Assembly: GCF_023715325.1 (NCBI RefSeq)
Contig: NZ_JAMBNX010000003.1
Span: 350,992 to 414,991 of the forward strand
Reading direction: 5' to 3'
Length of the DNA: 64,000 bases
From: Agromyces mediolanus
GTDB taxonomy: Bacteria; Actinomycetota; Actinomycetes; Actinomycetales; Microbacteriaceae
Below, in pieces: positions 12,482 through 40,974 of the stretch; position 1 is the first letter of the stretch; each line of letters starts with the position of its first letter. The translations under genes and the position numbers were made by a program. The notes beneath the pieces were generated by a model. That model ran no database searches, was not told the DNA's origin, and saw only the letters and a program-made list of their open reading frames with translations.

Positions 12482-12483
12482 GA

Positions 12484-13500: not shown

Positions 13501-13988
13501 GGGGTCATCGCCCCCGCGAGATACTCCGCGACGGAGGCCGGCACGTATGGGCGCACGTCGCCGCCGAGGGCCGCGACCTGGCGCACGAGCGAGCTCGAGA
13601 CATGCGCGTTCGCCGGGTCGGGCAGGAGGAAGACGGTCTCGACCCCGGCCAGGTGGCGGTTCACGATCGCCATCGGCGTCTCGTACGCCACGTCGAGCTG
13701 GGAGCGGATGCCCTTCACCAGCACGCTCGCCCCGACATCGGTGCAGTAGTCGACGAGCAGCCCCATGCTCCAGCTGGCCACCACGATGTCGCCCTGGATG
13801 CCGGCGTCGGAGATGGACTGCTCGATGAGCGCGACCCGCTGGGCGATGGGCAGGAGGGCGCTCTTGTCGGGGTTGTGCACCACGACCACATGGAGCTGGT
13901 CGTACAACCCTGCCGCACGCCCGATGACATCGAGATGTCCGAGGGTGACGGGGTCGAACGAGCCGGGAACGACGGCGATCCGCTGCAT
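13497..13988 (-). CDS. coaD: Phosphopantetheine adenylyltransferase
   Basis: 163 residues, standard length. [14 protein letters not shown] at 9-22 contains the TxGH nucleotidyltransferase motif, and [19 protein letters not shown] follows. It joins ATP and 4'-phosphopantetheine in coenzyme A synthesis. It lies between recG and moxR on the same strand. Confidence 0.98.
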
Positions 13989-14000
13989 GGCTCCAGCGTA
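13989..14000 (-). promoter_or_regulatory. Candidate leaderless promoter of coaD
   Basis: TACGCT on the minus strand (14000-13995) is followed by GGAGCC and then the coaD ATG, fitting the TANNNT-N6-ATG layout. The GGAG could alternatively serve as a very close Shine-Dalgarno. No -35 is recognisable. Confidence 0.4.
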
Positions 14001-14030
14001 GTGCCCGGCGGAGCCGCCGGCCCGGCCGCC

Positions 14031-25636: not shown

Positions 25637-25755
25637 CTTCCTTCGGTTCTGCTCTGAATCAGCCGTCGACGGACTCCGCGGCGGGGAAGGGCCTAGAACG
25701 AGGCCCCGCCGCGGCACCGAAGCAGAAGTCGCCGTGCACGCACCCTGACAGATTA
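25637..25755 (-). promoter_or_regulatory. Putative leucine-responsive leader of leuC (promoter, leader ORF, RBS-sequestering fold)
   Basis: Minus-strand TAATCT (25755-25750) is 6 bases before a GTG opening a 16-codon ORF with three consecutive Leu codons. CTTCGG (25722-25717, third Leu codon and next) is complementary to CCGAAG (25646-25641), and CTTC (25728-25725) to GAAG (25640-25637), the leuC ribosome-binding region, with a TG bulge. Between them an 11-base perfect stem (25714-25704 with 25686-25676) can form, and GGGCCT/AGGCCC (25689-25694, 25701-25706) competes with it. No T-run follows, so control of translation is more likely than intrinsic termination. Confidence 0.5.
25693..25743 (-). 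CDS. Putative leucine leader peptide MRARRLLLRCRGGASF
   Basis: Sixteen codons from GTG 25743 to TAG 25693, with Leu codons CTT CTG CTT at positions 6-8. No Shine-Dalgarno is needed if the transcript begins at or just before the GTG, as the TAATCT box 6 bases upstream suggests. Leader peptides rich in the regulated amino acid upstream of leucine genes are an established actinobacterial theme; this instance is my reading of the sequence. Confidence 0.5.
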   Translation of the reverse strand: MRARRLLLRCRGGASF

Positions 25756-26310
25756 CACGCTCGGCGAGGGCAGCCTCGCCACGAGCAGTCGCAGCCGCCC
25801 CAGCACGAGCACCTCGCCATCGCCCACGAGGACGGACGCGCCGGGCGCGAGCTCCTCCGCCTCCGCACCGGCCCGCTCGATGCGGATCCCGTTCGTCGAA
25901 TGCAGGTCGGTGACGACGAGCGCCTCTCCGGCCGGAACCACGAGGGCGTGCGTCTTCGACACCGTACGGCTCGGATCCTCGATCGGCACCGCCGCGCTCG
26001 CCCCTGCCGCGTCCTCGACGCGGGGCGCCCGGCCGAGCACCGAGGGGCCGGTCACGACCGCATCGGCCCCGCCCGCGGCGGCGAGCCGCCACCGGACCCG
26101 CTCCCCCGTGACCTCGAAGGCGGGGTCGAGCGGCACCGGCGCCTGCACGACCGGGCCCGCGGGGGACGGGAGGATCGGCGGCGGGCCGCTCCGGCCCGGG
26201 GCGAAGGAGGGCAACGTGCGCTCGACGGGCTTGGCGGCGCGCTCGGGCGCAGCCGGCGGTTCGCCGGGCACGAGTCCCGGCGGCGGCACGATGAAGTCGG
26301 ACCCGTCCAC
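25753..26310 (-). CDS. FHA domain protein (end of cluster B)
   Basis: 185 residues from GTG 26310. A Pro-rich first half (to about 65) is followed by a forkhead-associated domain: LGRAPR near 108, the phosphothreonine-binding block SRTVSKTHALV near 127 and DLHSTNGIRI near 152. FHA domains read phosphothreonine, so it is a natural partner of the kinase encoded upstream on the same strand. It has its own candidate promoter, and its stop lies inside the leu leader promoter. Confidence 0.88.
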   Translation of the reverse strand: MDGSDFIVPPPGLVPGEPPAAPERAAKPVERTLPSFAPGRSGPPPILPSPAGPVVQAPVPLDPAFEVTGERVRWRLAAAGGADAVVTGPSVLGRAPRVEDAAGASAAVPIEDPSRTVSKTHALVVPAGEALVVTDLHSTNGIRIERAGAEAEELAPGASVLVGDGEVLVLGRLRLLVARLPSPSV

Positions 26311-26322
26311 GCCGCCAGCCTA
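26311..26322 (-). promoter_or_regulatory. Candidate leaderless promoter of the FHA gene
   Basis: Minus-strand TAGGCT (26322-26317), 6 bases (GGCGGC), then GTG 26310. Fits the TANNNT-N6-GTG pattern; no clear -35. Confidence 0.45.
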
Positions 26323-26348
26323 GCGGCGGCGCCACAGCGTCTGCGAGT

Positions 26349-26408
26349 TGCACGACGATCCCCCGGGCCGCCCGCACCGCATCGGCGCGCCGCCCCCATC
26401 GTCGTGCA
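26349..26408. repeat. 11-bp perfect inverted repeat between FHA and transglutaminase-like genes
   Basis: TGCACGACGAT (26349-26359) is the exact reverse complement of ATCGTCGTGCA (26398-26408), with 38 GC-rich bases between. It lies in the only sizeable gap of this gene pair, just after the transglutaminase-like gene and before the FHA promoter. It could be a terminator stem or a protein-binding site; no T-run is seen. A smaller hairpin GCTCAC-GAGC-GTGAGC (26424-26439) overlaps the upstream stop codon. Confidence 0.6.
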
Positions 26409-26425
26409 CGCCGCAGGCGGCCCGC

Positions 26426-28771
26426 TCACGAGCGTGAGCGGCGGCGCCCCTGCTTCCGTCGGCGCGCGTAGCGGTACCGGCTCACGATCCGGCGGACCCG
26501 GCCGGCTGCGGCCGTCGCGGCGGCGGCCACGGCATCCGCCTCCGTCCAGCGCTGCGTCGCGACCGTCTCGTCGAGTTCCCGGCCCTCGAAGACGTCGCGA
26601 TCGACCGCGGCGGCGAGCGTGGCGAGCCCCTCGGCCCCGGCGAGCCCCTGCTCGCCGGACTGACCGGCGAGCGCGAGCGCCGTCTGGCGGCGCGTGGCGC
26701 GCTCGGGCGGCTCGAGCCCGAGCTCCGCATAGCGGTCGACGAGTTCGTCCCAGGCGCCGGCCGAGCTGCGGTCGGGGCGTTCGCGGAGCCGCCGCGCCCG
26801 ACGTCGCCGCTTCGCGAGCGCGACGAACAGCACGGGCAGGAAGACGATCGCGAGGGGGATGCCGACCGAGCCCGCGAGGACCCAGACCCAGCCGGGCACC
26901 TCGAAGGGGTGGTCTCGCTTCTCGTCCTCGGTGTCGTCGATCTCGACCGTCGTGAGCAGTTCGTCGTCGGTCGACTCGTTCCTCGGCGGCTGGCGCACCT
27001 GCGGCTGCGGCTCGCTCTTCGGCCGCGGCGTCTGCTCCTGCGGCACGTCGACCTGGTCGGGCGTGGGGCGGAAACTCACCCAGCCGACGCCTTCGAACGG
27101 CACCTCGACCCAGGCGGTGACATCTTCCCCGCGGATCTCGACCTCCTCCGCACCCTGCTCGACCTCGGGGGCGAAGCCCATCACCACGCGCGCCGGGTAG
27201 CCGAGCTGGCGCACCATGAGCGCCATCGCGGCGGCGTACTGCTCCTCGTCGCCCACCATCTGGGAGCGGGTGAACAGCTCGATGAGCCGATCGGCGCCGT
27301 GCCCGGCGCGTGAGGCCACGGAGTCGGAGGCGAGCCCGTGGCTCAAGAAGCCGTTGGTCTTCAGTCCCGTTTCGATCGCCCGGATGCGTCCGATCGCGCT
27401 CTCCTCGTCGCCCGCGTACTCCTCGGCCTTCGCGGCGACGACGTCCGGCAGCTGGTCCACGGGCGGCAGCTCGAGTCGGGCGACCGGGACATCGGCGAGG
27501 GCGTCGGGGTCGGGCTGCACCTGGATGCGGGCGTCGAGCGCGTAGCTCCCGCCCACCTGGAGCCCGCTCGTGAGCACGGCCGTGCCCGCATCGGCGTTGT
27601 ACCTGAGGTCGCCCGCACGACCGGCGGTGCCGTCGTCGACCAGCTGGAGCCGCGTGCCGTAGCCGATCGTCGGCAGCCAGACGTCGCGGTAGGCGAGCGA
27701 CTCGACCTCGAGGTGCCGCTCGCTGCCGAGCTCGGCGAGCGTCGGCTCGGGCAGCGTCTCGCCCACGATCGCGTAGCCGCCGTCGACCTTGGACTCCGGG
27801 CCGGCGACCGTGAACAGCCGACCGGTGTACGCGTCCATCGAGGCGAGTCGCAGCACGTCACCCGGCTGCATCCCCCGCACGCGGAGCACGGGCTCCTCGG
27901 CGAGGTCCTTCGTGTAGCTCCGGAAGCCGGCCAGCGGGCTCGAGAACTCGCGCGCGTCGAAGGGCGGCACGATCTCGTCGCGGAGCACGAAGCGCTCGGC
28001 GGCAGTCGGTGCGAACGCGAGGCCGGCCACGGTGCCGACGACGACCGCGCCGCCGACGACCGCGGCCGCGCCACCGGCGCGACGCAGCAGCGTGCGGCCG
28101 TCGGCCCCGCCCTGCTCGAGCCCGGAGCTGCGTCGCCACGCCAGCCACAGGAGCGCCAGCGCGCCGAACGCGACGCCCCGAACGGCGGCGAGGAACGCCT
28201 CGTCGGTACCGAGCAGGATGCCGGACACATAGAGCAGCACGGGACCGATGAGGAGCACCGCGGCGCGCAGCACGGTGCGACGCGCCGGCAGCCAGCGGAG
28301 CACGAGCAGTCCGCCGACGAGCGAGACGAGCCACGTCGCCACGTACGGCACGGCGGCGACGTAGTAGGGCGCCTCGACCGGGGCGGCGATCGTCACGAGA
28401 TCCGCCCAGCCGTACACCGCGCCGATCGCGAGGCCCGCCAAGGAGTCGAGGCTCGGCAGGATCACCGCGATCCCCTGTGCGGGCATCGCGAACGGCGTCC
28501 CGAGCAGGAAGTAGGCTGCGAGGGCCAGGAGCACGGTGTTCAGCACGCCGAGGCGCAGCAGCGACCCGAGCAGCGCCGCGCCCGTGCCGACGATGAGGCC
28601 GCCGACGGCGGCGAGGAGGAAGTCCATGCCGCCGAAGCTCGTCTCGTAACCGGCGACGGCGAGCAGGCACAGCGCGGCCAGCACCCCGAGGTCGACGAGC
28701 TGCGTGGTGGTGACCGTGCCGCGAAGGCGTGGCGCGGTCGCCGGTGCGAGGGTCGGGCGGGTCGCGGTCAT
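26426..28771 (-). CDS. Transglutaminase-fold membrane protein lacking catalytic Cys and His (cluster B)
   Basis: 781 residues. About seven N-terminal membrane helices (25-235), a large extracytoplasmic part, a C-terminal helix near 635-660 (VWVLAGSVGIPLAIVFLPVLFVAL) and a cytoplasmic tail, the TgpA-like layout. The core aligns with the cluster A paralogue, but the catalytic block GYCVQFA becomes GDEEQYA near 505 (Cys to Glu) and DLHAWPE becomes DVTAWVE near 551 (His to Thr), while the GYPARVVMGF and GVGWVSFRPTP scaffolds are kept. It is probably a non-enzymatic transglutaminase-fold protein. Overlaps DUF58 by ATGA. Confidence 0.88.
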   Translation of the reverse strand: MTATRPTLAPATAPRLRGTVTTTQLVDLGVLAALCLLAVAGYETSFGGMDFLLAAVGGLIVGTGAALLGSLLRLGVLNTVLLALAAYFLLGTPFAMPAQGIAVILPSLDSLAGLAIGAVYGWADLVTIAAPVEAPYYVAAVPYVATWLVSLVGGLLVLRWLPARRTVLRAAVLLIGPVLLYVSGILLGTDEAFLAAVRGVAFGALALLWLAWRRSSGLEQGGADGRTLLRRAGGAAAVVGGAVVVGTVAGLAFAPTAAERFVLRDEIVPPFDAREFSSPLAGFRSYTKDLAEEPVLRVRGMQPGDVLRLASMDAYTGRLFTVAGPESKVDGGYAIVGETLPEPTLAELGSERHLEVESLAYRDVWLPTIGYGTRLQLVDDGTAGRAGDLRYNADAGTAVLTSGLQVGGSYALDARIQVQPDPDALADVPVARLELPPVDQLPDVVAAKAEEYAGDEESAIGRIRAIETGLKTNGFLSHGLASDSVASRAGHGADRLIELFTRSQMVGDEEQYAAAMALMVRQLGYPARVVMGFAPEVEQGAEEVEIRGEDVTAWVEVPFEGVGWVSFRPTPDQVDVPQEQTPRPKSEPQPQVRQPPRNESTDDELLTTVEIDDTEDEKRDHPFEVPGWVWVLAGSVGIPLAIVFLPVLFVALAKRRRRARRLRERPDRSSAGAWDELVDRYAELGLEPPERATRRQTALALAGQSGEQGLAGAEGLATLAAAVDRDVFEGRELDETVATQRWTEADAVAAAATAAAGRVRRIVSRYRYARRRKQGRRRSRS

Positions 28772-30074
28772 GGCCTGACCCTCCGCATCACCGCGGCGAG
28801 CTCGCCGAGCTCACCGATCGTGGCGACGGTGCTCCGGCCCACCTTCGCGATCCGCGACTCGGCGCCGCGCTGCACGCGGACCGCGACGAGCGGGGTCTCG
28901 GGCGGCAGCACGGTCTGCACCGCGCGCACCTCGCTGAGCGGCTGGGCGCCGCCGGTGACGAGCACCACGACGCTCGCCGCGGGCGCGAGCCGGATCCGGT
29001 CCCGCACGAGTTCGCGCAGCGCGCCGGCGGCCGGCCCGCCGCGACGGGCGTACGGCTCGATGCGGCAGCTGTCGTCGAGGAGGCTCGTCGTGCTCGTCGT
29101 GCGCAGCCGCATCCGTTCGGTGGCGCAGACGGTCTTCGTGGCGTCGCGGATCAGCTGCACGCCGATCGACGCGAACACCGAGACGCCGAGCTCGAACTCG
29201 GCTTCGTCGTCGTAGTGCGACTCCTCGGTCGACTGGAGGAGCACCAGTTCGGAGCGCCGAGTCTCCTCGTACTGGCGCACCATCAGGCGGCCGGTGCGCG
29301 CCGAGCTCCGCCAGTGCACGTTGCGCAGCGGGTCGCCGGGCTCGTAGGCGCGGAGCGCGTGGAAGGAGAGGTCGTGATCGGTGATGACCTTCGTGACCTC
29401 GCCTTCGAGGTCGCGGACGAGGCCGGCCGCGGACGGGCGGAGCCGGGCGGTCACCGGGTGCACGAAGAGCTCGACGGGATCGTTCCAGCGCACCGTCCTC
29501 CGAAGCAGTCCGAGTTCGTCGCCGCGGACCGAGATCGCCGGTCCGGCGACGATCACCGCACGGCGATTGGTCGGCACCGCGAAGAGCTCCTCGTGCTCCG
29601 CCCGCGGCTCCAGCGTCGGAATCCGGAAGACGGCCGATCCCGCTCCGACCGGCAGCTCGATGCGCGAGGAGACCGAGTTCGAGCCGCCGTCGTTCACGAC
29701 GGTCAGCCGGCCGAGCGCACGCTCCCCGGCGACCACCCGACGCGGCTCCAGCTCGACGCCGACGCGGTAGCGCAGTCGACCGAACACGAACGGCACCGCG
29801 ATGAGGAGCGCCCCCGCGAGCGTGGCGGCGAGGAACGCGAACTCCACCCAGTCGAGAACCACCGCGATCAGCGTCGCGACGAGCGCCGCGACCAGCACGA
29901 GCCATCCCGTGGTCGAGACCAGACTCGTGACCGGCCGGACGAAGGCCGCGACGGCCCGCCGGGCTCGCCCGAGCCGTTCGCCGAACGAACCGGCTGTACG
30001 CGCGACGGAGCGCCCGACGGCCTGGAAGGCCAGCCGGGACTGCGAAGGCTGCGGCGTGGTGCCGGCGTCGCCCG

Positions 30075-30078
<4 letters not shown>
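28768..30078 (-). CDS. DUF58 domain protein (cluster B)
   Basis: 436 residues from ATG 30078, overlapping both neighbours by ATGA. Two membrane helices (about 45-62 and 68-88) precede the DUF58 signature YEPGDPLRNVHWRSSARTGRLMVRQYE near 250 and a C-terminal alpha/beta (VWA-like) region. It is the presumed client of the adjacent MoxR ATPase. More than a close duplicate of the cluster A DUF58 protein: overall similarity outside the signature looks low. Confidence 0.88.
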
Positions 30079-31043
<965 letters not shown>

Positions 31044-31071
31044 GTCGTTCGTTCCTCCACGGTGGAAATCA

Positions 31072-34000
31072 TCAGAGTGCGCCCCAGTTCGCGACGCTGC
31101 TGTAGAAGGTGCCGCCCGGCCCCTGGAAGCGGATGCGGACGCCCGGGAACTCGGCCGGGTTCGCCTCGCCCAGGAAGCTGAGCGTCTGGAAGGTGCCGCC
31201 GCTGCCCAGGTTGATCCGCTGCGACGTCATCGAGGTCCAGCCGGCGCTCGTGCTCCAGTGCTGGTACTCGACGGTCACGGTGTAGGAGCCGGGGGTGAAG
31301 TCCGAGTACCTGGCCGCGACGTAGCGGCAGCAGCCGCTGTCGCCGCCCTTGTAGACCGACGCGCTCGGCGAGGGCGGGGGCGGGTTGTTGACGGTGACGC
31401 GATCGGACGCGCCCGGTCCTGCGTTGTTGCCGCCGTTGATCGCGCGCACCTCCACGGTGTGCGTGCCGGCGCCCTGGTTCGGGAAGCTGGCTGCACGAGC
31501 CGGCACGTCCTGCCAGCCACCGCCGTCGAAGCGGACCTGATACCGCAGCTGGCCGCCGCCGTCCTGTGTGGGGGCGTTCCAGCTCGCCCGCACCGTCGTC
31601 GGTGCGTTGCCGTCGGCGCTCACCCGCACATCGGTCGGCGCGCTCGGCGTACCCCAGGGCGTCACCGACGCGGAGAGAGTGGAGTACGTGCCGTCGCCCA
31701 TCTTGTTGCTCGCCCGCACCTGGAAGGTGTACGCCTGGCCGTTCGTGAGGCCGCCGATCACCTGATTCTTGCCCGCCGCGTCCGCGCCGAACGGCCGGGC
31801 CGAGCCGGCACCGGCCACGTCGTAGCCGGTGATCGCGGCGTTGTTGTTCGCCGGCGCGCTCCACTTGATCGTCGCCTGGCCGTCGCCGCTCGCGACGACC
31901 GTGGGCGCGCCCGGTGCGTCCGGCGCATCGCGGACGACGACGGTCACCTGGCCCTGCGCCTGGCGGGTCGGGTCCTTGGTGCCGTCCTCGATGCGGTAGT
32001 TCACCGTCACCGTTCCGGTGAACGCCGAGCCCGTCCGGATCGTCACGTCCTCCGGGGTGAAGCTCGCCGTCGCGTTCGCGCCGACGCTCACCACCTCCGC
32101 GGCCACCACCCGCAGCGGCACGCCGTCCTGCGCGAAGGGGTTGAAGTCGTTCTCGAGCACCGGGACCGTCACCGAGCCCCCGCGCTTCACCTCCAGCTCA
32201 CCGGTGTTCGGGTCGGCGACCGCTCGCGGCTTCGCCCGCGTCGACGACACCACCTTCACGTCGACGTACCCGGGAACGGTGAACTCGTTGAAGCGGAGCT
32301 GGAAAGAGAGGCGAGCGGACGCCCCGGGCTGCACACCGAGGGGCGCCTGCATCCGCAGGATCGAGCCGTCGACGATCTCCGCCTGGATCTCCTCGCTCTG
32401 CCCGCTGAGGCCGGTGTAGCTCACCTTCGCGATGTTGTCCGGGTTCGGCTGATCGGTCATCTCGCGCAGGTCGACCTCGAGCGGAGCCTCGCCGGCCTCG
32501 ATGGTCTCACCGCGCGGGGTGAACGTCGGCGCGACGTCGTTGAAGCCGGGGTCGCCGACCGTGATCGGGAAGCTCAGGATGGCCCGACGGCCGACCGGGT
32601 CGTCGGCGCCCTTGCCGTCGGTCACCTCGAAGGTCACCGTCGCGGGGCCGCGGTAGTCCCGCTCCGGCTCGAACCGCAGCTCGGTGCCGCTCACCATCGG
32701 CGAGCCGGCCGAGTTCGTCGCCGACGCCGACAGGATCGTGGCGGGCTGGCCAGAGGGCACCTCGACGAGCTCGCCGACGCCCCACTCGATGCTGCCGTTC
32801 ATCGGCACGACGATCTCGCCGAGGTTCTTCAGGTACGGCGCCGGGAACTTCGCGCGCTCCTCGGCCGCGATCTCCTCCGGCGTCTTCGGGCGCTGGGTCT
32901 CCTCCGGCACGGCGTCGCCGTCCGGCATGGGTGGCACGATCACGAACGCCATCGCGGACAGCTCGTCGAGCTCGTTCGTGAGCCGGAACGCCACCGCGTA
33001 GCGTTCCTGGGCCGGCCGCACGGAGATGGTGCCGTCGGCTGCGACCTCGGCGCGGCCGGCGTTCGGCCCCTCGACGGTGACGACGAGGTCTTCGACGAGC
33101 CCGCCCGGGTTCGTCGCGTCCTTCAGCGGGTCGACGACCGCGTCCTCGCCGGCGACGAGCCGTTCGGGCTCGAGCACCTGGTCCTCGGCCGTCGGCGGGT
33201 CGATCACGGCGTCCTCGCTCACCGCGAGCTGCAGGAACGCGGTGTCGGTTCCGCCGTGCCCGTTCGAGATCGCGTAGCGGATCGTGTAGGCCCCCTCGCC
33301 CTCCGGCGCGGTCACGATGACCCGGCGGCGGTCCCGGATCTCGGCCTCGATGCCCTCGTCGACCTCGGGGAGGTCCGCGACGTGCAGACTGTAGCCATTC
33401 GGGTCGGAGTCGTTCAGCAGCACGTCGACGCCGACGGTGCGACCCGGCTTCATCTCGATCGCGTCGTCGACCGCGGTCGGCGGCGCCTGCACCTCGGCGC
33501 GCGGGATGACGCCGATCCGGATGGTGCCGACGGCCTCCTCGCCCTGCGTGTCACGCAGCACGTAGCGGAACTCGTCGGTGCCACTGCCTCCGGCGAACGC
33601 CTCGTACGTGAACGAGGTGCTCGTGCGCTCGAGGATCCGGCCGAGGGCCGGCGCCTGATCGATGCCGGTGAGCACGACCGAGTCGCCGTCGGGGTCGATG
33701 CCGTCGAGCGGGACGTCGATGGTCACCGCCGAGCCGGCGAAGGTGCGCGAGGTGAGCGGGGTGGGCAGCGGTGCCCGGTTCTCGGCGTCCCGCCCGATGA
33801 CCGTGAAGGTGACCGTGGCACGTGCGAGCTGCTCGAAGTCGTCGAGCACCGTGTAGACGACGGTGTGCACGCCCGCCTGGTCGGGTGCCTGGAACCGCAC
33901 CGACTCGCCATCGGTGAACGCGAGCGCGCCGGGCGCTCCGCTGAGATCGAGCTCGGGGTCGAGCCACATCGTCGCCGCGTCGGGGTGGTAGTCGTTCGCG

Positions 34001-36393
34001 AGCACCGGCACGGTGACGATGTCCCCGGCGCGCACGATGGCGGAATCGTCGAGCGCGACGGGGGGCTGGTGCTTCACGAGCGGCGGAACAGGGACGACGG
34101 TCACGGTCGAGGTCGCGGTGTTCACGCCGTCGGAGACCGTGTACGAGAACTGCAGCTGCCGGTCGAGCGCCTCGGAGGCGCTCACGCGGGCGACGGTGTT
34201 CGTGAGGAGCTCGACCGAGACGAGGCCGTCCGTGGCGGTGTCGTCGATCGACTGCACCGCGAGCACGCGACCGGAGGGGGACACGTCGTTCGCGAGGACC
34301 GAGACGGAGGTCGGCTCGCCGGGCCGGAGGTAGGCGGTGTCCTTCACGGCGATGGGCGCGGGCGGGTCGGCCGGCGGTTCGACGACCTGCACCCGGATGA
34401 GCCCGACGCTCACATTGGCCCCGGCACCGAGGTCGTACAGGAAGATGTACTCCCCCGCGGTGTTGCTCGAGAAGGCGATCGTGCCGCGCTCGGGGTTCGG
34501 CGTCGTCGTGGCGCCCTCGGGCGGCTCGGGCACGCCGAGGAGCTCCACCGGTGCGCCGGAGGGCGAGAGGTCGTTCAGGAGCGGCTCGATGAGCACGTTC
34601 TCGCCGACGAAGACCTGAGCGAAGTCGGGCGTGCCGATCGGGTTCAGCGAGCCGGCGGGCTTCACGTCGACGGTGAGCGTCCCGGTCGCCGAGTTCTGGC
34701 CGTCGGAGACCGTGTAGACGACCTCCTTCAGGCCGAGCTCCGCCGACTTGTGCTCGAAGGTGACGAAGCCGTCGGGGCTCGCACGCACCAGGTCACCGCT
34801 CGTCGGCGAGGCATCGACGAGGAAGAGGTCGTCGCCGTCGGGGTCGCTCCAGTCGGCGAGCAGGTTGTAGGAGATCTGCTGGCCCTGCTCGACGCTCGTC
34901 GCCCCGTTGCGCATCGGCTTCGGCGCGGCATTCTCGCTCTCGGGCACGACTCGGAGGTTCACGCTCGCCTCGGCGACTCCGCCGCGCCCGTCGTCGGCGG
35001 TGTACCGGAAGCTGACGGTGCCGGCGGCACCGTCAGCCGGGGTGAACTGGAGGGCGCGGCCGCCGTCGATGACGTCGAGGCGTCCGGCCGCTTCGGCGAT
35101 CTCGCTCGTCCGGACGATGGTGAGCACGTCGCCATCGGGGTCGGTGTCGTTCGCCAGCACGTCGACGATCGTGGTCCGCCCCGGGCGCACGCCGAAGTCG
35201 TCGTCGCGTGCGACCGGCGGGCGGTTCTGCTCGGTGCGCTCGGCAAGCGTGTCCTCGAAGGTCTGCTGGGCGCTCTTCTCGTCGCCCTCGAGTTCGTCGG
35301 TCTCCTCCGGGGGCGTGACCTCTTCCCAGTTGTCGACAAGGCGGAGCTCGGAGTCGAGGAGCCAGGCGTCCCCGTTCGCGAGGTTGTTCAGCACCACGAC
35401 GTCGCGGTTCACCCGGAACTCGAGCCGACCGCCAGCGGTCGACTGCTCGAGGTCGACGCCGCGCGGCTCCTCGCCGTCGCAGACCGCGAGGTAGCGGCCG
35501 GCCTCGGCCCAGGCGCCGTGCACGCAGGCTCCGACCCGCACCGGTGCGGCGACGCTCGACCGCTTCTCGGTGCTCGCGGCGCCCTCCCGCTGCACCTCGC
35601 GGACCTCGCCACCGCCGAGCGGTGCGAACAGGAGCGCATCAGCGGTCGCCACGACGGCTTCGGATGCCTCGGGGCCCGACTGCTGCAAGCGCAGGGCGCC
35701 GCCCGGCAGTTCGATCCGCCGCTCGTCGACGAGGAGTTCGTCGGCCTCGAGGTCGAGGACGACGGCCCGCTCGCCCACCGCGGCGAGCTCGTGCTCGCCG
35801 AAGGCGCCGATCGAACGGACCACGGGTGCCTCGGCGCCTCGTTCGAGGCTCAGCAGTTCACCGGGCTTGGGGTCGCTCGCGAAGACGGTGCCCCGTTCAC
35901 TGACCGCGACCGCAGCACCCGAGCCGAGCTTCGCGACGGGCTCGGTGCCGCGCCAGTCGAACGAGAGCGACCCGGCGGCCGGCACGGTCCACAGTTCGCC
36001 CTTCGGCGACAGTACGGCGATCACGTCGCCGCCGTAGGCCACCCTGGAGGCGGGCGGCACGTCGATGCGTTCGACGAGCGTCGTGAAGGCGGCGTCGACC
36101 CGTTCGATCGAGCCGACCGACGGGTCGTACGCGAAGGCGTCCTGCCCGTGCTGGAAGACATCGGTCTCGCTCGCGGCGGTCGCGACCGCCGCGTCGAGCT
36201 CGTCGATCTGCCGGTTGAGCCGGCCGAGCTGCAGTTCTTCGGCGTTCGTGACCCAGACCTCGCGCACGCGGAGGTCGGGGTCGGTCACCGGGAACCCCTG
36301 GTGCAGCACCGCGAAGCCGATCGGGACACCGGCCAGCACCGCGAGCGCGGTGACCGAGGCGATGGTGCGTCGGCGGGCACCGAAGAACCCCAT
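31072..36393 (-). CDS. Giant exported Ig-like / fibronectin type III repeat protein
   Basis: 1773 residues. A short basic N-terminus and one hydrophobic helix (about 10-29) make it a membrane-anchored or exported protein with nearly everything outside. Residues 60-370 have short beta repeats and may form a propeller. From about 385 to 1460 there are about eleven Ig/cadherin-like units, marked by NDTDPDGD-type turns near 414, 517, 608, 703, 803, 900, 997, 1094 and on, a period close to 97. Two FN3 domains follow near 1490 and 1585, then a C-terminal domain with adjacent Cys-Cys near 1686. No LPXTG or second anchor. The genes around it encode kinase, FHA and MoxR functions. Confidence 0.9.
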   Translation of the reverse strand: MGFFGARRRTIASVTALAVLAGVPIGFAVLHQGFPVTDPDLRVREVWVTNAEELQLGRLNRQIDELDAAVATAASETDVFQHGQDAFAYDPSVGSIERVDAAFTTLVERIDVPPASRVAYGGDVIAVLSPKGELWTVPAAGSLSFDWRGTEPVAKLGSGAAVAVSERGTVFASDPKPGELLSLERGAEAPVVRSIGAFGEHELAAVGERAVVLDLEADELLVDERRIELPGGALRLQQSGPEASEAVVATADALLFAPLGGGEVREVQREGAASTEKRSSVAAPVRVGACVHGAWAEAGRYLAVCDGEEPRGVDLEQSTAGGRLEFRVNRDVVVLNNLANGDAWLLDSELRLVDNWEEVTPPEETDELEGDEKSAQQTFEDTLAERTEQNRPPVARDDDFGVRPGRTTIVDVLANDTDPDGDVLTIVRTSEIAEAAGRLDVIDGGRALQFTPADGAAGTVSFRYTADDGRGGVAEASVNLRVVPESENAAPKPMRNGATSVEQGQQISYNLLADWSDPDGDDLFLVDASPTSGDLVRASPDGFVTFEHKSAELGLKEVVYTVSDGQNSATGTLTVDVKPAGSLNPIGTPDFAQVFVGENVLIEPLLNDLSPSGAPVELLGVPEPPEGATTTPNPERGTIAFSSNTAGEYIFLYDLGAGANVSVGLIRVQVVEPPADPPAPIAVKDTAYLRPGEPTSVSVLANDVSPSGRVLAVQSIDDTATDGLVSVELLTNTVARVSASEALDRQLQFSYTVSDGVNTATSTVTVVPVPPLVKHQPPVALDDSAIVRAGDIVTVPVLANDYHPDAATMWLDPELDLSGAPGALAFTDGESVRFQAPDQAGVHTVVYTVLDDFEQLARATVTFTVIGRDAENRAPLPTPLTSRTFAGSAVTIDVPLDGIDPDGDSVVLTGIDQAPALGRILERTSTSFTYEAFAGGSGTDEFRYVLRDTQGEEAVGTIRIGVIPRAEVQAPPTAVDDAIEMKPGRTVGVDVLLNDSDPNGYSLHVADLPEVDEGIEAEIRDRRRVIVTAPEGEGAYTIRYAISNGHGGTDTAFLQLAVSEDAVIDPPTAEDQVLEPERLVAGEDAVVDPLKDATNPGGLVEDLVVTVEGPNAGRAEVAADGTISVRPAQERYAVAFRLTNELDELSAMAFVIVPPMPDGDAVPEETQRPKTPEEIAAEERAKFPAPYLKNLGEIVVPMNGSIEWGVGELVEVPSGQPATILSASATNSAGSPMVSGTELRFEPERDYRGPATVTFEVTDGKGADDPVGRRAILSFPITVGDPGFNDVAPTFTPRGETIEAGEAPLEVDLREMTDQPNPDNIAKVSYTGLSGQSEEIQAEIVDGSILRMQAPLGVQPGASARLSFQLRFNEFTVPGYVDVKVVSSTRAKPRAVADPNTGELEVKRGGSVTVPVLENDFNPFAQDGVPLRVVAAEVVSVGANATASFTPEDVTIRTGSAFTGTVTVNYRIEDGTKDPTRQAQGQVTVVVRDAPDAPGAPTVVASGDGQATIKWSAPANNNAAITGYDVAGAGSARPFGADAAGKNQVIGGLTNGQAYTFQVRASNKMGDGTYSTLSASVTPWGTPSAPTDVRVSADGNAPTTVRASWNAPTQDGGGQLRYQVRFDGGGWQDVPARAASFPNQGAGTHTVEVRAINGGNNAGPGASDRVTVNNPPPPSPSASVYKGGDSGCCRYVAARYSDFTPGSYTVTVEYQHWSTSAGWTSMTSQRINLGSGGTFQTLSFLGEANPAEFPGVRIRFQGPGGTFYSSVANWGAL

Positions 36394-36475
36394 GGCGCTC
36401 CCCCCTCGGTGCCGTCGTCGGGTCGTCGTCGAAACGGCCCGGTCGCCTCAGGTGGAGCGTGCCGGGCCGGGCATC

Positions 36476-36481
36476 AACCTA
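36476..36481 (-). promoter_or_regulatory. Possible internal promoter before the giant Ig-like gene
   Basis: The 150-base gap 36394-36543 is the largest break in the upstream half of cluster B. It contains minus-strand TAGGTT (36481-36476) as a possible -10, and two short palindromes, GGGGAG-GA-CTCCCC (36507-36520) and GGGGCGCCCC (36491-36500). No firm -35. Confidence 0.25.
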
Positions 36482-36543
36482 ACATGCGGAGGGGCGCCCC
36501 CCAAACGGGGAGGACTCCCCATGGCGGGGCATCCGCCGGCCGG

Positions 36544-37263
36544 TCAGGCCTCCGCCGCGCGCGCTTCGTCGGACTCTTCACGCGCCCGATCCAGCAGCGG
36601 GAGCTCGTCCGCGCTCACGAGACGTGTCGCCACCGCGTACTCCACGAGCCTGGCCCGACGGTTCGTCGCGAGCTTGCCGCGGCCGCCTCGCAACCCCTCG
36701 ACCCCGATCTTGTCGAGCTTCTCGCAGACGTTGTCGAGCTTCCGGTTGAACGTCGTCATGCTCCACCCGAGGCGCTCGGCGGCCTCCGCGGAGCTCGGCA
36801 CCGTGGCCCGGCCCGCCGGCTGCACGAGCACCTGCTCCGCGAGGGCGAGCACGAGCAGCCGCTGGCTCGGCGTGAGCGACACCGGCATGATCGTCGTGCC
36901 GGCCGTCGACGTCTCGGCGGTCAGCGAGGTGTTGTAGAAGTCGTCCTCGGCGTGCACGGTGAAGTCGTACGCGGTGGATCCGGCACTGAACATCACGTGC
37001 ATCGTCTGGAACACGATCGGCAGTCGTGCGCCCGGCGCGAGCCACGCTTGCACACTGCCGGTCGCGTCCGACACCGTCGCGGAGAGCAGCTGACCGACGT
37101 TGTCCAGCCACCACAAGCCGTACTCGGCCCTGAGCGTCAGAAAGACGCGGTGCAGGTACGGGTTCTCGTCGATCACCAGCTCGGCCTCGCGACCGATGCC
37201 GAACGGCACGCCCTCCTCGACGGTGTACCACTCCCCGCAGAACTCGATCCGCAACGGCCTCAT
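36544..37263 (-). CDS. FHA-like domain protein with C-terminal helix-turn-helix
   Basis: 239 residues from ATG 37263, overlapping the kinase stop. The N-terminal half looks like an FHA beta-sandwich (FGIGREAELVIDENPYLHRVF near 22-42, then WWLDNVGQ), but the usual Ser of the SxxH block is absent. The C-terminal part LTPSQRLLVLALAEQVL to SAEAAERLGWSMTTFNRKLDNVCEKL (about 140-195) resembles a sigma-region-4 or winged HTH. It may turn kinase signals into transcription, though DNA binding is only inferred. Confidence 0.78.
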   Translation of the reverse strand: MRPLRIEFCGEWYTVEEGVPFGIGREAELVIDENPYLHRVFLTLRAEYGLWWLDNVGQLLSATVSDATGSVQAWLAPGARLPIVFQTMHVMFSAGSTAYDFTVHAEDDFYNTSLTAETSTAGTTIMPVSLTPSQRLLVLALAEQVLVQPAGRATVPSSAEAAERLGWSMTTFNRKLDNVCEKLDKIGVEGLRGGRGKLATNRRARLVEYAVATRLVSADELPLLDRAREESDEARAAEA

Positions 37264-38942
37264 TCTGTGCACCCCCGCACGCTCTCGCTCGTCTTGCTCC
37301 CCCGCTGCACCTGCACGTCGATGCAGATCCGCTGGCCGGGCGCGACCGGCGCCACCACGATCTCCGGTCCGTCCGCGACCTCCGTCGAGCCGGACCCGTC
37401 CGCCAGCCTCCACCGGTAGCGGTCGCCGTCCGCGGCGTCGTCGTGCGACACGGCGAAGACGACTTCGGTGCCGTCCGCCGAGGCGACGCCGTCGGCGACC
37501 ACGGGCGACGGCACCTGCGCACCGGCGATCGCGTCCTCGCCGTCGACCGCGGCCGGAGGACTCGCCTCGGGCGGACCGGCGAGCTGGCCGGAGAGGGCGA
37601 CGGCGATGCCGACCGCGGCGACCACGACCAGTGTGGCGGCGATGCCGATCACGAGGCCGAGGCGCGAGCGTCGGCGCTGCGCTGCGGGCTGCGTCGTCCC
37701 CGCCGCGGCGTCGGCCGCCGGCGTCGCGAACGTTCCGTGCGCTGCGCTCGACGGCGGTGGGGCGGTCGGCCGCTGCGCCTGACGGGGTCGCACGAGCGTC
37801 TGCTCCTCGGCGGGCGGCTCCGGCGCGGCCGTCGCCGGCGCCAGTGCCGGCGCCGGCGCCGTCGGAAGCTGCGCGGGCACGGTCACGGGACCGCGCGCGC
37901 GAGTCGCGTCCGCGTCGGGGGCGGCGGGCTGCGCCTGGATGGAGGCGACTCGCGCGCGAGTGGCGTCGGCGCCGTCCTCTGCGGGGGCCGCATCGGCGCT
38001 CTGCTCGGCGAGCAGCTGCGTCGGCACCTCGATCGCGGTCGCGGCGTAGCCGAGCTCGAGCTCGATCCGCTGCAGCGCCCGCGCGAACTCGACGGCACTC
38101 GCGTAGCGCTGCTCGCGGCGCACCGCCATGCCCCTCCGGAGCACGGACTGGAGGCTCTGCGGCACGTCGTCACGATCGATGGGGGTGATCGCGCCGCGTT
38201 CGATCCGGCCGATCAGGTCGAGCGACCCGTTCGGTCGGCCCGGGAGTTCGAACGGCGAGCGTCCGGCGAGCAGCGTGTGCACGGTCGCGGCCAGCGCATA
38301 CACGTCGCTCCGGGTGTCGGGGCGCGGATCGTCGTCGAACAGCTCCGGCGGCGACCACGGAACGCTCAGGCCGATGGCCGATTGCGCGCCGCCGGTCGAC
38401 CCGGTCTCCGCGCCGCCGCCGAGGAACGTCATCGTATGCACCGGCAGTTCGCCCTCGAGCGTCGACGAGATACCGAAGTCGGTGAGCGCCGGCCAGCCGT
38501 AGTCGTTCGTGAGCACGTTGGCGGGTTTGATGTCCCGGTGCAGGATTCCGGCCGCATGCGCCGTCGCGACCGCACTGGCGAGCCGGATGCCGGTGCGCAG
38601 CGCGGCGTCGACCTGGAACGGCTGGCGCTTCAGCTGCGCGGCGAGGCTCGGTCCCGAGCAGTACTCCATGACGAAGTACGGGCGGCCGTCGGCCGCGACG
38701 TCGGCGTGGAAGATCGTGACGATGTAGGGGTGCGCCGAGAGCTGGGCCATCAGGTTCGCCTCGGCGACGAACTGCGCCCGGGTGTCGCGGGACAGTTCGT
38801 CGGCGATGAGCACCTTCACGGCCACGCGCCGCCGAGGCAGCCGCTGCTCGTACAGGAACACGTCGGCGAATCCGCCGGAGCCGAGCAGGTCGACGTACTG
38901 ATAGCCGGGCAGTTCCGGCGGGGTACTGGGCTGGCGACGCAT
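37260..38942 (-). CDS. Membrane Ser/Thr protein kinase with extracellular FN3-like domain
   Basis: 560 residues. Kinase domain about 10-285: glycine loop LGSGGFADVF, VAVKVL Lys near 43, HRDIKPANVL near 134, DFG near 155. An Ala/Pro/Thr-rich juxtamembrane stretch leads to a membrane helix near 430-455 (LGLVIGIAATLVVVAAVGIAVAL) and an extracellular domain of about 100 residues with FN3-like strands and two Cys (ICIDV and RGCTE). There are no PASTA repeats. It overlaps the FHA gene upstream by one base and the FHA-HTH gene downstream by four. Confidence 0.93.
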   Translation of the reverse strand: MRRQPSTPPELPGYQYVDLLGSGGFADVFLYEQRLPRRRVAVKVLIADELSRDTRAQFVAEANLMAQLSAHPYIVTIFHADVAADGRPYFVMEYCSGPSLAAQLKRQPFQVDAALRTGIRLASAVATAHAAGILHRDIKPANVLTNDYGWPALTDFGISSTLEGELPVHTMTFLGGGAETGSTGGAQSAIGLSVPWSPPELFDDDPRPDTRSDVYALAATVHTLLAGRSPFELPGRPNGSLDLIGRIERGAITPIDRDDVPQSLQSVLRRGMAVRREQRYASAVEFARALQRIELELGYAATAIEVPTQLLAEQSADAAPAEDGADATRARVASIQAQPAAPDADATRARGPVTVPAQLPTAPAPALAPATAAPEPPAEEQTLVRPRQAQRPTAPPPSSAAHGTFATPAADAAAGTTQPAAQRRRSRLGLVIGIAATLVVVAAVGIAVALSGQLAGPPEASPPAAVDGEDAIAGAQVPSPVVADGVASADGTEVVFAVSHDDAADGDRYRWRLADGSGSTEVADGPEIVVAPVAPGQRICIDVQVQRGSKTSESVRGCTE

Positions 38943-40114
38943 CAGTCGGCCACCACGCGCATCGTGCAGCCGCCGCCGAGGTCGATGAGCGTGCCCGCGA
39001 GCACCGGGGTCGCCTCGCCGGCGCGGAGCTTCACGGGCGCCCGGTCGGGTTGGACGACCGTCGTGCCGTTGCGGGACTGCAGGTCGGTGACCACCACGGT
39101 GCCGCCCTCGACCGCGAGGCGCAGGTGGGAGCGCGAGATGTCCGGGTCGCCCACGCCGATCTGCACGAGCTTCGGCAACGAGGTCCCGCTCGACCGGCCA
39201 GCGCTCGGCGAACGACCGAGCACGATCTCGCCCGTGAGCACTTCCTCGCGTCCGTCGTCGAGCACGAGCCGCAGCCGGGGCGCCTCCGGCTCGGGGCTCG
39301 GTGGCGCGGCGCCGTCGGCGGCGAGCGGGCCGGTGACCCGCTCGCGGCGGAGCCGCTGCAGTTTGGTCACCGCGACCGTGAGTCCGTCGTGGTCGCCGGT
39401 CACGGGGGCGGCCGTCGGTTCGCTCGCGGCGGCGGCGGCCGCGATGCCGTTCCCGGCCCCCGTTCCGATGACGATGGTCTCGTCGTCGGCCGGCACGAGC
39501 GTGTGCTCCGGGGCGACCGGCTCGGGCTCGAGCTCGAGCTCGAGCTCCGGCTCCGGGCCGGGCTCCGGCTCCACGTCCCGCACGACGCGGGGTTCGGGCT
39601 CGGCCTCGGGCTCGGCCTCCGGCCGGGGCTCCGCGTCCCGCGCGACGCTGGATCGGGGCTCCGCCCCGGGCTCCGCGTCCTGCGCGTCGAGCTCGCCGCG
39701 ACTCACCGCGTGCGCGGGCACCACGCCCTCGACCATCGGCAGCGGGCCCACTCCGGCGCCCTTGCGGGCGAACGGGGCGAGCACCTCGAACACCGCGTCA
39801 GTCTCCAGGGCGCGTTCGTGCCAGGTCGACACCCCGGCGGCGGTCACGGTGTCGCCCGCCGTGCGCACCCGGAAGCCGCCGCGGACGACCACGCGCAGGC
39901 TTCCCGGCACGGCGACGACGAGGGCGAAGTCCGGGAGCGCGACGATGCCGTCCCGGGCGAGCTCGCCGAGCACGGCCTCGACCGGATCGGCGGCGCCCAG
40001 CGCCTCCCAGAGTCCCGGGTGCGCGGTCCAGGCCGGCACCGGCACGAGGAGCACGGCCTCGCCCCGCACGATGGCGAGCGTCTTCGTCGCCGCATCCGGC
40101 GTGTAACGGATCAT
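38942..40114 (-). CDS. FHA domain protein with Pro/Glu-rich linker
   Basis: 390 residues. An N-terminal alpha/beta domain of unknown type (1-125), a long acidic Pro-Glu repeat region (about 150-205, low complexity), then a C-terminal FHA domain: VLGRSPSAGR near 318, GDPDISRSHLRLAV near 343 and DLQSRNGTTV near 363, with all key FHA residues. It is likely an adaptor for the kinase encoded next. Starts at ATG 40114, overlapping the PP2C stop. Confidence 0.9.
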   Translation of the reverse strand: MIRYTPDAATKTLAIVRGEAVLLVPVPAWTAHPGLWEALGAADPVEAVLGELARDGIVALPDFALVVAVPGSLRVVVRGGFRVRTAGDTVTAAGVSTWHERALETDAVFEVLAPFARKGAGVGPLPMVEGVVPAHAVSRGELDAQDAEPGAEPRSSVARDAEPRPEAEPEAEPEPRVVRDVEPEPGPEPELELELEPEPVAPEHTLVPADDETIVIGTGAGNGIAAAAAASEPTAAPVTGDHDGLTVAVTKLQRLRRERVTGPLAADGAAPPSPEPEAPRLRLVLDDGREEVLTGEIVLGRSPSAGRSSGTSLPKLVQIGVGDPDISRSHLRLAVEGGTVVVTDLQSRNGTTVVQPDRAPVKLRAGEATPVLAGTLIDLGGGCTMRVVAD

Positions 40115-40974
40115 GCGGCGTCGCCCTCCCTGGGCACGGTGTCTTCGGGAACCGGGGCCCGGTCCCGCGTCGTCTCCTCGTCGACCTCGTGCGAGCCGCT
40201 CTGCGCCTCGACCACGACGACGGTGACATTGTCGCGTCCGCCACGGGCGAGCGCTTCATCGACGAGTTCGCCGGCGAGCCCGTGGGCGTGCCCGCCGCCC
40301 GTCGCGAGCACCTCGCCGATGGCGTGGTCGTCGAGCTCCTTCGTCAGGCCGTCGGAGCAGATGAGGAAGACTTGCCGGCCCTCGCTCGGGAGCAGCCACA
40401 CGTCCGGCTCGACGATCTCCTCAGCACCGAGCGCGCGCGTGATGACGTTCCGCTCGGGGTGCCGTTCCGCCTCCGACTGCCGGATGACGCCCGCGTCCAC
40501 GAGTTCCTGCACGGCCGAGTGGTCCACGCTGACCTGCCGGAGCCGCCGCCCGTCCCAGTTGTAGACGCGTGAGTCGCCGACGTTGAACACCATCCAGCGC
40601 AAGCCTTCCCCCGGGCCCGCGTCGACAAGGGCGATGCCGGCGAGGGTGGTGCCGGCGACCGCGGTGCCGAGCTCGCCGTGGTCGCTCAGGGCACGGACGG
40701 CCTCGTTCGAGGAGTGGATCGCGTCGAGGATCTGTTCGGGCGTGGATGCGCGTCCGAACTCGAGGTGCCGGCGGAAGGTCTCGAGCACCGCGCGACTGGC
40801 AGCGTCGCCCTTCGCGTGCCCGCCCATGCCGTCCGCGACGAGGTACACGGGGGCATCGGCGAGGTAGGCGTCCTCGTTCACCTGACGCACCCGGCCGACA
40901 TCGCTCGACGCGCTGTGGGCGATCACCGCCCCGCCGTGCGGCAGTGCTGTGCGCCCCTCGTCGTCGATCGCCAC
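40111..40974 (-). CDS. PP2C-family Ser/Thr protein phosphatase
   Basis: 287 residues from GTG 40974 with AAGGGGAGG upstream. RQVNEDAYL near 31, VADGMGGHAKGDAAS near 47, SDGL near 200 and GRDNVTVVVVE near 250 give the metal-binding aspartates of the PP2C fold. It has no membrane segment. As first gene of the cluster it supplies the eraser for the kinase and FHA readers. Confidence 0.95.
   Translation of the reverse strand: MAIDDEGRTALPHGGAVIAHSASSDVGRVRQVNEDAYLADAPVYLVADGMGGHAKGDAASRAVLETFRRHLEFGRASTPEQILDAIHSSNEAVRALSDHGELGTAVAGTTLAGIALVDAGPGEGLRWMVFNVGDSRVYNWDGRRLRQVSVDHSAVQELVDAGVIRQSEAERHPERNVITRALGAEEIVEPDVWLLPSEGRQVFLICSDGLTKELDDHAIGEVLATGGGHAHGLAGELVDEALARGGRDNVTVVVVEAQSGSHEVDEETTRDRAPVPEDTVPREGDAA

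Follow-up and report, generated by a model that had tools for sequence, protein, structure and literature searches.

A PFNA-type operon of Agromyces mediolanus with a transglutaminase-fold protein that lacks the catalytic cysteine and a palindrome that recurs before WXG100 genes

We analyzed a 64,000-nucleotide stretch of the Agromyces mediolanus genome (here called the window) and, within it, a block of nine minus-strand genes between positions 25753 and 40974. The block encodes a PP2C-type phosphatase, a Ser/Thr kinase, two FHA proteins, an FHA-helix-turn-helix (FHA-HTH) protein, a giant protein with Ig/FN3-like repeats, a MoxR ATPase, a DUF58 protein, and a membrane protein with a transglutaminase (TG) fold. 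It is a PFNA-type operon, of the kind published in Bifidobacterium, with an added regulator and promoter element. As judged by sequence comparison, the gene unit is conserved in many relatives, the functional residues of its kinase, phosphatase, ATPase, and FHA domains are intact, the TG-fold protein has lost its nucleophile, and a palindrome positioned before the giant gene recurs before WXG100 genes of the type VII secretion type.

RESULTS

The nine-gene block is a PFNA-type operon

The signaling genes comprise the phosphatase (40111 to 40974, 287 residues; Pfam PP2C_2 E value, 2.8e-11; NCBIfam Stp1 E value, 1.7e-59, below the cut-off of that family), an FHA protein of 390 residues with its FHA domain at residues 306 to 366 (38942 to 40114; Pfam FHA E value, 1.2e-7), the kinase (37260 to 38942, 560 residues; Pkinase E value, 2.1e-32), and the FHA-HTH protein (36544 to 37263, 239 residues). 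The machine genes comprise the giant (31072 to 36393, 1773 residues), the MoxR-family AAA+ ATPase (30075 to 31043; AAA_3 E value, 6.3e-63), the DUF58 protein, with a predicted hairpin of two transmembrane helices at residues 49 to 102 (28768 to 30078, 436 residues; DUF58 E value, 4e-10), the TG-fold protein (26426 to 28771; Transglut_core E value, 1.5e-13), and a second FHA protein of 185 residues (25753 to 26310; Pfam FHA E value, 2.1e-5; NCBIfam TagH FHA E value, 3.8e-6, far below its cut-off). The Pfam scan thus backs PP2C, both FHA proteins, Pkinase, Big_9/fn3, MoxR AAA_3, DUF58, and Transglut_core; the starts of the FHA-HTH and DUF58 genes were set within longer open reading frames (ORFs). 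Five of the eight gene junctions overlap by 1 to 4 bases. The others are gaps of 150 bases (5' of the giant), 28 bases (5' of MoxR), and 115 bases (5' of the last FHA gene), and the largest divides the block into its signaling and machine parts. An earlier note on this DNA had described nine same-strand genes here, mostly overlapping by 1 to 4 bases, and the block is indeed real, same-strand, and conserved. The note had taken kinase-FHA and MoxR-DUF58-TG sets to be known separately; that their joining as one unit is unreported was not supported: the core is the published bifidobacterial PFNA operon, and the idea of a new combination was rejected.

As published, the PFNA operon of Bifidobacterium consists of pkb2-fn3-aaa-atp-duf58-tgm, plus prpC, a hypothetical gene, and fha; its genes are reported to be cotranscribed in B. 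longum GT15 (PMC8430577, PMC6803598, PMC10688814), and phosphorylation of the MoxR ATPase by the kinase Pkb2 is reported for Bifidobacterium (PMC8430577). The window has the same contiguous fn3-MoxR-DUF58-TG order with a linked kinase and phosphatase, and its TG-fold protein, like those of Bifidobacterium, lacks the cysteine. Additions in the window are the FHA-HTH gene, another FHA gene, and the palindrome 5' of the giant, and the operon family found here covers wider taxa and has swapped module order. The PFNA kinase directly precedes fn3, whereas in the window FHA-HTH intervenes. The same genome has a second, PFNA-ordered operon on contig C6 in which the kinase does directly precede the giant (L259, G000:C6:30000-48637; kinase-giant [~2200 residues]-MoxR-DUF58-TG [no Cys]-FHA-PP2C). 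One PFNA paper confines the operon to bifidobacteria, a mycobacterial review states that a moxR operon resembles PFNA (PMC12067865), and two papers treat WXG100 or type VII genes in Bifidobacterium with no tie to PFNA in the passages seen (PMC9415070, PMC4965825). Among the papers listed by literature searches that covered few subscription journals, we saw none on such a block in other genera, on an inactive TG within it, or on a connection to type VII secretion. Relative to the searchable papers, the distribution beyond bifidobacteria, the loss of the TG nucleophile, and the palindrome shared with WXG100 genes appear to be new.

The gene unit is kept in many relatives

Searching with the full-length TG-fold protein gave matches in 103 of 198 order genomes (E value, ≤1e-20) and in 126 of 296 genomes of the class (≤1e-15); outside the order, the matches listed with values below 1e-50 all came from one further family (f45). 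Ninety-seven of 102 loci from the order had a TG score of >300, and these carried the giant in 91 cases, MoxR in 90, and DUF58 in 96. All three genes lie upstream of TG in 85 of the 97 order loci and in 75 of 80 named loci; the five exceptions among the named loci reflect short contigs, matches close to the end of a contig, or broken-up gene matches (L080). The six order loci without a giant in the stretch are L117 (a shortened stretch), L173, L185, L186, and L200 (contig ends), and L151, and in two others (L188 and L196) the giant is downstream of TG. The propeller domain of the giant was found in 88 of the 198 order genomes, 87 of which also hold TG (the exception is G112; listings were compared by eye).

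The signaling genes travel with this core in varying positions. Among the 97 order loci, the kinase comes before in 31, after in 29, and on the opposite strand in 4, with none in the stretch in 33. The kinase module follows TG in Arthrobacter, most Microbacterium, Herbiconiux, Brachybacterium, and Myceligenerans and precedes the giant in the window; in L177, L181, L183, and L184, kinase and FHA genes follow TG on the opposite strand. Twenty added upstream stretches yielded the kinase in 19, PP2C in 14, the 390-residue type of FHA protein in 15, and FHA-HTH in 9. In family f45, a signaling gene was present in 3 of 12 stretches, a count that says little because those stretches end near the start of the giant. 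That the neighbors stay together despite the shuffled order argues for a working unit. Gene order is kept in relatives, and the block is more than a chance arrangement; the earlier note had held that confinement of the block to this strain would refute its reading, and this refutation failed. The operon is present in Agromyces (the source of the closest named TG relatives), Cryobacterium, Arthrobacter, Microbacterium, Brachybacterium, Myceligenerans, and other genera besides Bifidobacterium, and a bifidobacteria-only distribution was therefore rejected. In Labedella (L071 and L073), a second kinase-giant set directly follows the first operon, and in L073 this set also has a partial MoxR gene.

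The TG-fold protein lacks the catalytic cysteine across the operon family

The window protein has Glu509 (codon at 27245 to 27247) at the position of the catalytic cysteine, Thr552 at that of the histidine, and Arg568 at that of the aspartate. Its predicted architecture, from hydropathy, is that of TgpA, with an N-terminal transmembrane bundle, an outer TG core (Transglut_core at residues 449 to 569), a transmembrane helix, and a positively charged tail, and TgpA of Pseudomonas aeruginosa (PDB 6G49), likewise a membrane protein with an outer TG core, was the sole PDB match of the TG family profile (E value, 7e-9). In contrast with the window protein, TgpA retains the Cys-His-Asp triad and is reported to have shown activity (PMC3507681). 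The earlier note had described the operon protein as a TG-fold membrane protein; the absence of the cysteine throughout its family lay beyond that description.

None of the 97 operon orthologs of the order has cysteine at this position, where we found D in 46, E in 17, A in 15, S in 14, G in 3, and Q in 2. The flanking Glu-Gln is invariant across these orthologs, and the histidine and aspartate positions vary freely. Protein searches gave the same picture, with serine in 120 of 120 Bifidobacterium-type proteins (all source-named rows being Bifidobacterium) and cysteine in 0 of 120 Agromyces-type proteins; cysteine was also found in 0 of 12 f45 loci and in 0 of 87 rows from the named loci. Since the contig-scan patterns contain a no-Cys motif, the 80 named loci are not an independent test of cysteine loss, and that role falls to the order loci, found with the full-length query, and to the protein searches. 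The count set aside the 5 of 102 order loci with TG scores of <300 (L214, Ser; L215, Cys; L216, Ala; L217, Glu; L218, Cys). More distant relatives that have a kinase match close by (L214, L232, L234, and L236) likewise lack the cysteine, and the seven cysteine-bearing relatives examined, including one at 8827 to 11763 in the window, have no adjoining giant or kinase match. A tree was built from 67 rows, 40 of them drawn at random from the 97 order loci and the others chosen; in it, forms with and without the cysteine fall on two sides of one branch with a support of 100. The window has an internal contrast about 15 kb from the operon protein, a minus-strand MoxR-DUF58-TG set at 8827 to 14154 in which the cysteine is present (GYCVQFA) and which has neither a kinase nor a giant next to it.

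Every operon copy examined lacks the catalytic cysteine, and the operon TG-fold protein is predicted to be catalytically dead. The regulatory and ATPase residues described below are intact and the nucleophile is lost family-wide; therefore, the TG fold seems to have been retained as a part and not as an enzyme. Among the Bifidobacterium-type matches, three clusters (P0138, P0143, and P0145) have DUF58 and TG in one chain of 1214 to 1221 residues, which suggests contact between the two proteins, although a sequencing or assembly error is possible. Erythrocyte band 4.2 (EPB42) has a scaffold role, and the operon protein, likened to it by description, would similarly keep a TG fold at the membrane for binding and not for catalysis, EPB42 being eukaryotic. 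EPB42 is named a catalytically inactive transglutaminase in one paper (PMC10318531).

Kinase, phosphatase, FHA, and MoxR residues are intact

Residues were counted in the 80 named loci and the window, using rows above score cut-offs (31 for PP2C, 14 for the 390-residue FHA protein, 23 for the 185-residue FHA protein, 64 for the kinase, and 59 for FHA-HTH). In rows thus preselected by score, the PP2C aspartate columns are intact in 31/31, the 390-residue FHA protein retains G-R, S-x-x-H, and N-G in 14/14, and the phosphothreonine-binding residues of the 185-residue FHA protein are present in 23/23. The kinase has HRDxKxxN in 54/54 and the DFG aspartate in 55/55 nongap rows (of 64); hydropathy predicts one transmembrane helix at about residues 425 to 457 and an outer part of ~100 residues, as in the PFNA membrane kinase. 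MoxR has Walker A in 76/76 and Walker B DE in 77/77 nongap rows (of 78) and, with its AAA_3 match and DUF58 neighbor, has the features of the MoxR Proper group of AAA+ proteins. The H-W core of DUF58 is retained in 81/81 rows. One DUF58 column is Asp in the set with a cysteine-containing TG and is Ser in 53, Thr in 10, and Asp in 3 of 81 operon forms; loss of this Asp is common but not complete. With functional residues intact in both signaling enzymes, in MoxR, and in two FHA proteins, phosphorylation control of an envelope structure is a reasonable reading of the unit. This much of the earlier note's proposal of a phosphorylation-controlled envelope unit is supported, together with the conserved unit; novelty of the combination is not.

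The giant begins with a predicted beta-propeller

The giant was first described as an Ig/FN3 protein of 1773 residues, and its matches to Big_9 (E value, 5.7e-88; 8 stretches) and fn3 (E value, 7.9e-12) agree with this; its N-terminal predicted beta-propeller had not come into view. The layout is a transmembrane helix at residues 7 to 30, the propeller at ~45 to 353, the Big_9 repeats, FN3, and a C-terminal part. One fn3 match lies at 1492 to 1572, followed by weaker Ig/FN3-like matches to ~1659 (the PFNA giant has two FN3 domains and a C-terminal region). Arginines precede the transmembrane helix identified by hydropathy, and the rest of the giant is thus predicted to lie outside the cell. 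Residues 1 to 385 were modeled from 54 sequences as one transmembrane helix and a beta-propeller (pLDDT, 89.9), and this region has two invariant cysteines, Cys290 and Cys305. The propeller profile matches designed Pizza propellers (E value, 9.3e-6), and the best Foldseek match of the model was an archaeal surface-layer propeller/PKD protein (1L0Q), followed by BamB, with TM-scores near 0.5. These matches back a propeller fold and nothing finer. Several loci (L043, L049, L050, L054, L060, L077, L078, and others) have a tandem pair of giants upstream of one MoxR-DUF58-TG set, as if a single machine served several surface proteins.

FHA-HTH and the palindrome before the giant

FHA-HTH is strongly conserved, being 48 to 83% identical to the window protein in 53 relatives. 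The FHA part of the name is supported by an AlphaFold model from 54 sequences (pLDDT, 82.6; pTM, 0.48), which has an FHA fold followed by helices and whose best PDB match is 6CCD (E value, 3.7e-6). For the HTH part, 18 of 54 members have a Pfam HTH_8 match under the cut-off (best E value, 0.01). The longer ORF had no Pfam match at 0.01, and a PDB profile search with FHA-HTH gave no meaningful match. The FHA half has a motif of its own (N and L-H-R invariant in 59/59, with P and with Y or F in most) instead of the usual S-x-x-H.

Between FHA-HTH and the giant lies an 18-bp palindrome, ATGGGGAGTCCTCCCCGT (36505 to 36522, minus strand), a candidate operator, followed by an extended -10-like box, TGTTAGGTT (36476 to 36484, minus strand), that begins 37 bases after the start of TGGGGA. 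TGGGGA-n-TCCCCA, with ≤1 mismatch, occurs in 64 of 189 regions upstream of giants versus 1.35 in shuffles preserving single-base composition only, with a spacer of 4 in 63/69 matches. Where palindrome and box could be paired, TGTTA[GC] starts 37 to 38 bases on from the arm in 22 of 26 pairs. Over 4.2 Mb of loci, we counted 40 exact palindromes versus 0 for a reversed control and ≤3 for 20 permuted arms; allowing one mismatch gave 107 sites versus 7 in the control. The site counts from loci in this paragraph include duplicates, as L239 to L258 repeat parts of earlier loci. The consensus from 62 sites is ATGGGGAG-NN-CTCCCCAT. A palindrome precedes the giant in 49 of 110 loci with FHA-HTH and in 13 of 74 loci without FHA-HTH in the stretch. 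A consensus sigma-70 promoter scan found 0 sites, and there was 1 terminator-like site versus 2.8 in shuffles.

The palindrome recurs before type VII secretion-type genes

Among the 4.04 Mb and 89 contigs of the A. mediolanus genome, five places match TGGGGANNNNTCCCCR, and the control matched 0. One precedes the giant. Another lies 94 bases 5' of a WXG100 gene (PF06013 E value, 1.9e-20), after which come two further WXG100 genes and the gene of a 1617-residue polymorphic-toxin-like protein. A third, in the same region, lies 97 bases 5' of a Tdi1/GAD-like gene; the other two are near lipoprotein-like genes. Upstream, the WXG100 locus also encodes an FtsK-type ATPase and a protein whose zinc-ribbon and FHA matches are weak. 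In this type VII-like locus with two palindromes (L266; G000:C11:33000-52900), the 1617-residue protein matches Ntox15 and ADP-ribosyltransferase, and the Tdi1-like gene is of the immunity type. The palindrome as a recurring site had lain outside the earlier note.

The association with WXG100 was first noticed in this genome and then tested in others. Exact 18-mers occur in 17 of 60 family genomes (1 to 4 per genome) versus one control site. In the 16 family genomes other than this one, 7 of 30 exact sites lie 77 to 132 bases before a WXG100 match (chance, 0.003) and 3 of 30 lie 83 to 214 bases before a giant (chance, 0.004). WXG100 and giant genes are 3 to 14 kb apart in G468, G475, G509, G515, and G516. 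Of 45 palindromes in the loci that do not precede a giant, 33 were inspected (excluding L071, L092, L112, L146, L158, L160, L183, L217, L223, L233, L242, and L243), and 20 of these precede a WXG100-like ORF, by reading. When the first 88 to 90 residues of 10 such proteins were compared with Pfam, 10/10 matched WXG100, 5 at or above the cut-off. Two palindromes precede an FHA-FtsK ATPase of 1554 to 1570 residues (L057 and L061), one precedes MoxR (L173), and one precedes a PP2C-like gene (L248). Conversely, a search of the loci with three own-genome WXG100 seeds found 6 ORFs, 5 with a palindrome; a broader search gave 27 matches, 16 with a site and 11 without, and is biased, as 17 of its 20 seeds came from beside palindromes. 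By reading, the 11 siteless matches were mostly the second gene of a pair or an ORF start called too early. Sharing of the palindrome by the giant and type VII secretion-type genes indicates that both are likely switched on together. The type VII link runs through a palindrome common to both in many relatives; Pfam finds no WXG100 or FtsK gene among the nine genes of the block.

A tRNA-Glu gene lies upstream of the block. We take the upstream neighbor to be a TerC-like gene and the downstream neighbors to be leuC- and leuD-like genes.

DISCUSSION

We give an even chance to the following reading: an AAA+ machine in the membrane, gated by phosphorylation, puts the giant in place or releases it, and FHA-HTH, acting through the palindrome, coexpresses the giant with type VII secretion-type genes. 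The kinase domain, DUF58, and MoxR are predicted to be inside the cell and the TG domain and the giant outside; the propeller and FHA folds are model predictions. The kinase would sense the envelope through its outer part and phosphorylate MoxR and its partners, and the FHA proteins would read these marks and set MoxR-DUF58 activity. MoxR-DUF58 would then act across the membrane on the TG-fold protein, which may dock the giant outside without cross-linking it. The phosphorylation state would also alter binding of FHA-HTH at ATGGGGA-N4-TCCCCAT, which is centered ~45 bases 5' of the presumed transcription start of the giant gene and also stands before WXG100 genes, so that FHA-HTH would report the state of the machine to the giant and WXG100 promoters.

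In the type VI secretion threonine phosphorylation pathway (PpkA-PppA-Fha), a kinase, a PP2C phosphatase, and an FHA protein gate an envelope machine. The block has the same three kinds of protein, and its 185-residue FHA protein weakly matches TagH, but Pfam finds no type VI structural gene in it, and the link here is to WXG100 genes through a promoter site. By analogy, the block may work like this pathway without being a member of it. More tentatively, and below even odds, we propose that PFNA-type operons serve type VII secretion in actinobacteria as its surface and control arm. In this view, the kinase, phosphatase, and FHA proteins would gate a machine of MoxR, DUF58, and a pseudotransglutaminase that docks the giant as a propeller/Ig contact protein at the envelope, and FHA-HTH would fire the giant and WXG100 promoters together, as an actinobacterial counterpart of the phosphorylation-gated type VI trigger.

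A number of observations weigh against this phosphorylation-gated machine with a type VII tie. The links among its proteins in this organism come from sequence and prediction. Because 61 of 110 loci with FHA-HTH have no recognizable palindrome before the giant, and because 13 of the 74 loci without it do have one, FHA-HTH as the binding protein is something that we infer; it is a candidate binder, and another regulator could bind instead. Eleven loci of family f4, including the Bifidobacterium-type L119, have neither an FHA-HTH match nor the site in their stretches; the type VII link is thus not universal, and the core machine can probably work without these additions. In this genome, the WXG100 locus is on a different contig from the block, and the palindromes near lipoprotein-like genes (L267:6873 and L268:6990) have no clear partner; in the 16 other family genomes, 20 of the 30 exact sites precede no WXG100 match and no giant match. 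L151 carries the machine genes with no giant in the stretch and a propeller match ~0.5 Mb away in the genome, the TG-fold proteins of L216 and L233 lack the cysteine and have no giant or kinase match, and the DUF58 of the second operon copy in this genome retains its Asp.

Of the other explanations, a system that assembles an adhesin or an S-layer-like structure under kinase tuning, functionally separate from type VII secretion and with the palindrome as a general envelope-stress operator, fares best, although we consider it unlikely. The surface-layer match of the propeller, the palindromes near lipoprotein-like genes, and the adhesion role cited for the Bifidobacterium FN3 protein are all in keeping with it; a general operator sits less well with a palindrome that is rare, with five sites in this genome, and that recurs before WXG100 genes. 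A sensor of host immunity, as proposed for Bifidobacterium, in which cytokines bind to the giant FN3 protein and the kinase passes the signal on, is very improbable. The operon occurs in many genera other than Bifidobacterium (Agromyces, Cryobacterium, Arthrobacter, and Microbacterium among them), most of which live outside animals, and the binding of cytokines may be one local role that an older machine has taken on. The published basis for the sensor proposal is that a C-terminal FN3 fragment of B. longum GT15 is reported to bind tumor necrosis factor alpha, which reportedly induces the operon (PMC8430577, PMC10688814, PMC12607495). We give marginally less weight still to a MoxR-vWA conflict (defense) system like those that Kaur and colleagues described. 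MoxR does stand beside a vWA-like protein, with a weak bpMoxR match (E value, 1.2e-10), and the systems described include beta-propellers and FHA domains (PMC7159879); in the block, however, the propeller belongs to the predicted exported giant and is not fused to vWA, and Pfam, though not PADLOC, was searched and shows no effector domain. Finally, an active cross-linker tying the giant into the wall, as the transglutaminase name given in databases and papers and the activity of triad-bearing TgpA might suggest, was rejected as scarcely credible, as no operon copy examined, among the 97 order loci and the protein sets, has the cysteine.

In print, PFNA is read as a bifidobacterial, genus-specific host-immune device with a transglutaminase-like enzyme. 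The wide range of genera, the loss of the nucleophile, and the promoter site shared with WXG100 genes together point instead to an older, general actinobacterial envelope machine. If the phosphorylation-gated machine with its type VII tie is correct, FHA-HTH would gain a concrete DNA target, the type VII secretion of Agromyces and related bacteria would gain a candidate regulator and surface partner, and the role of MoxR-DUF58-TG sets would become testable.

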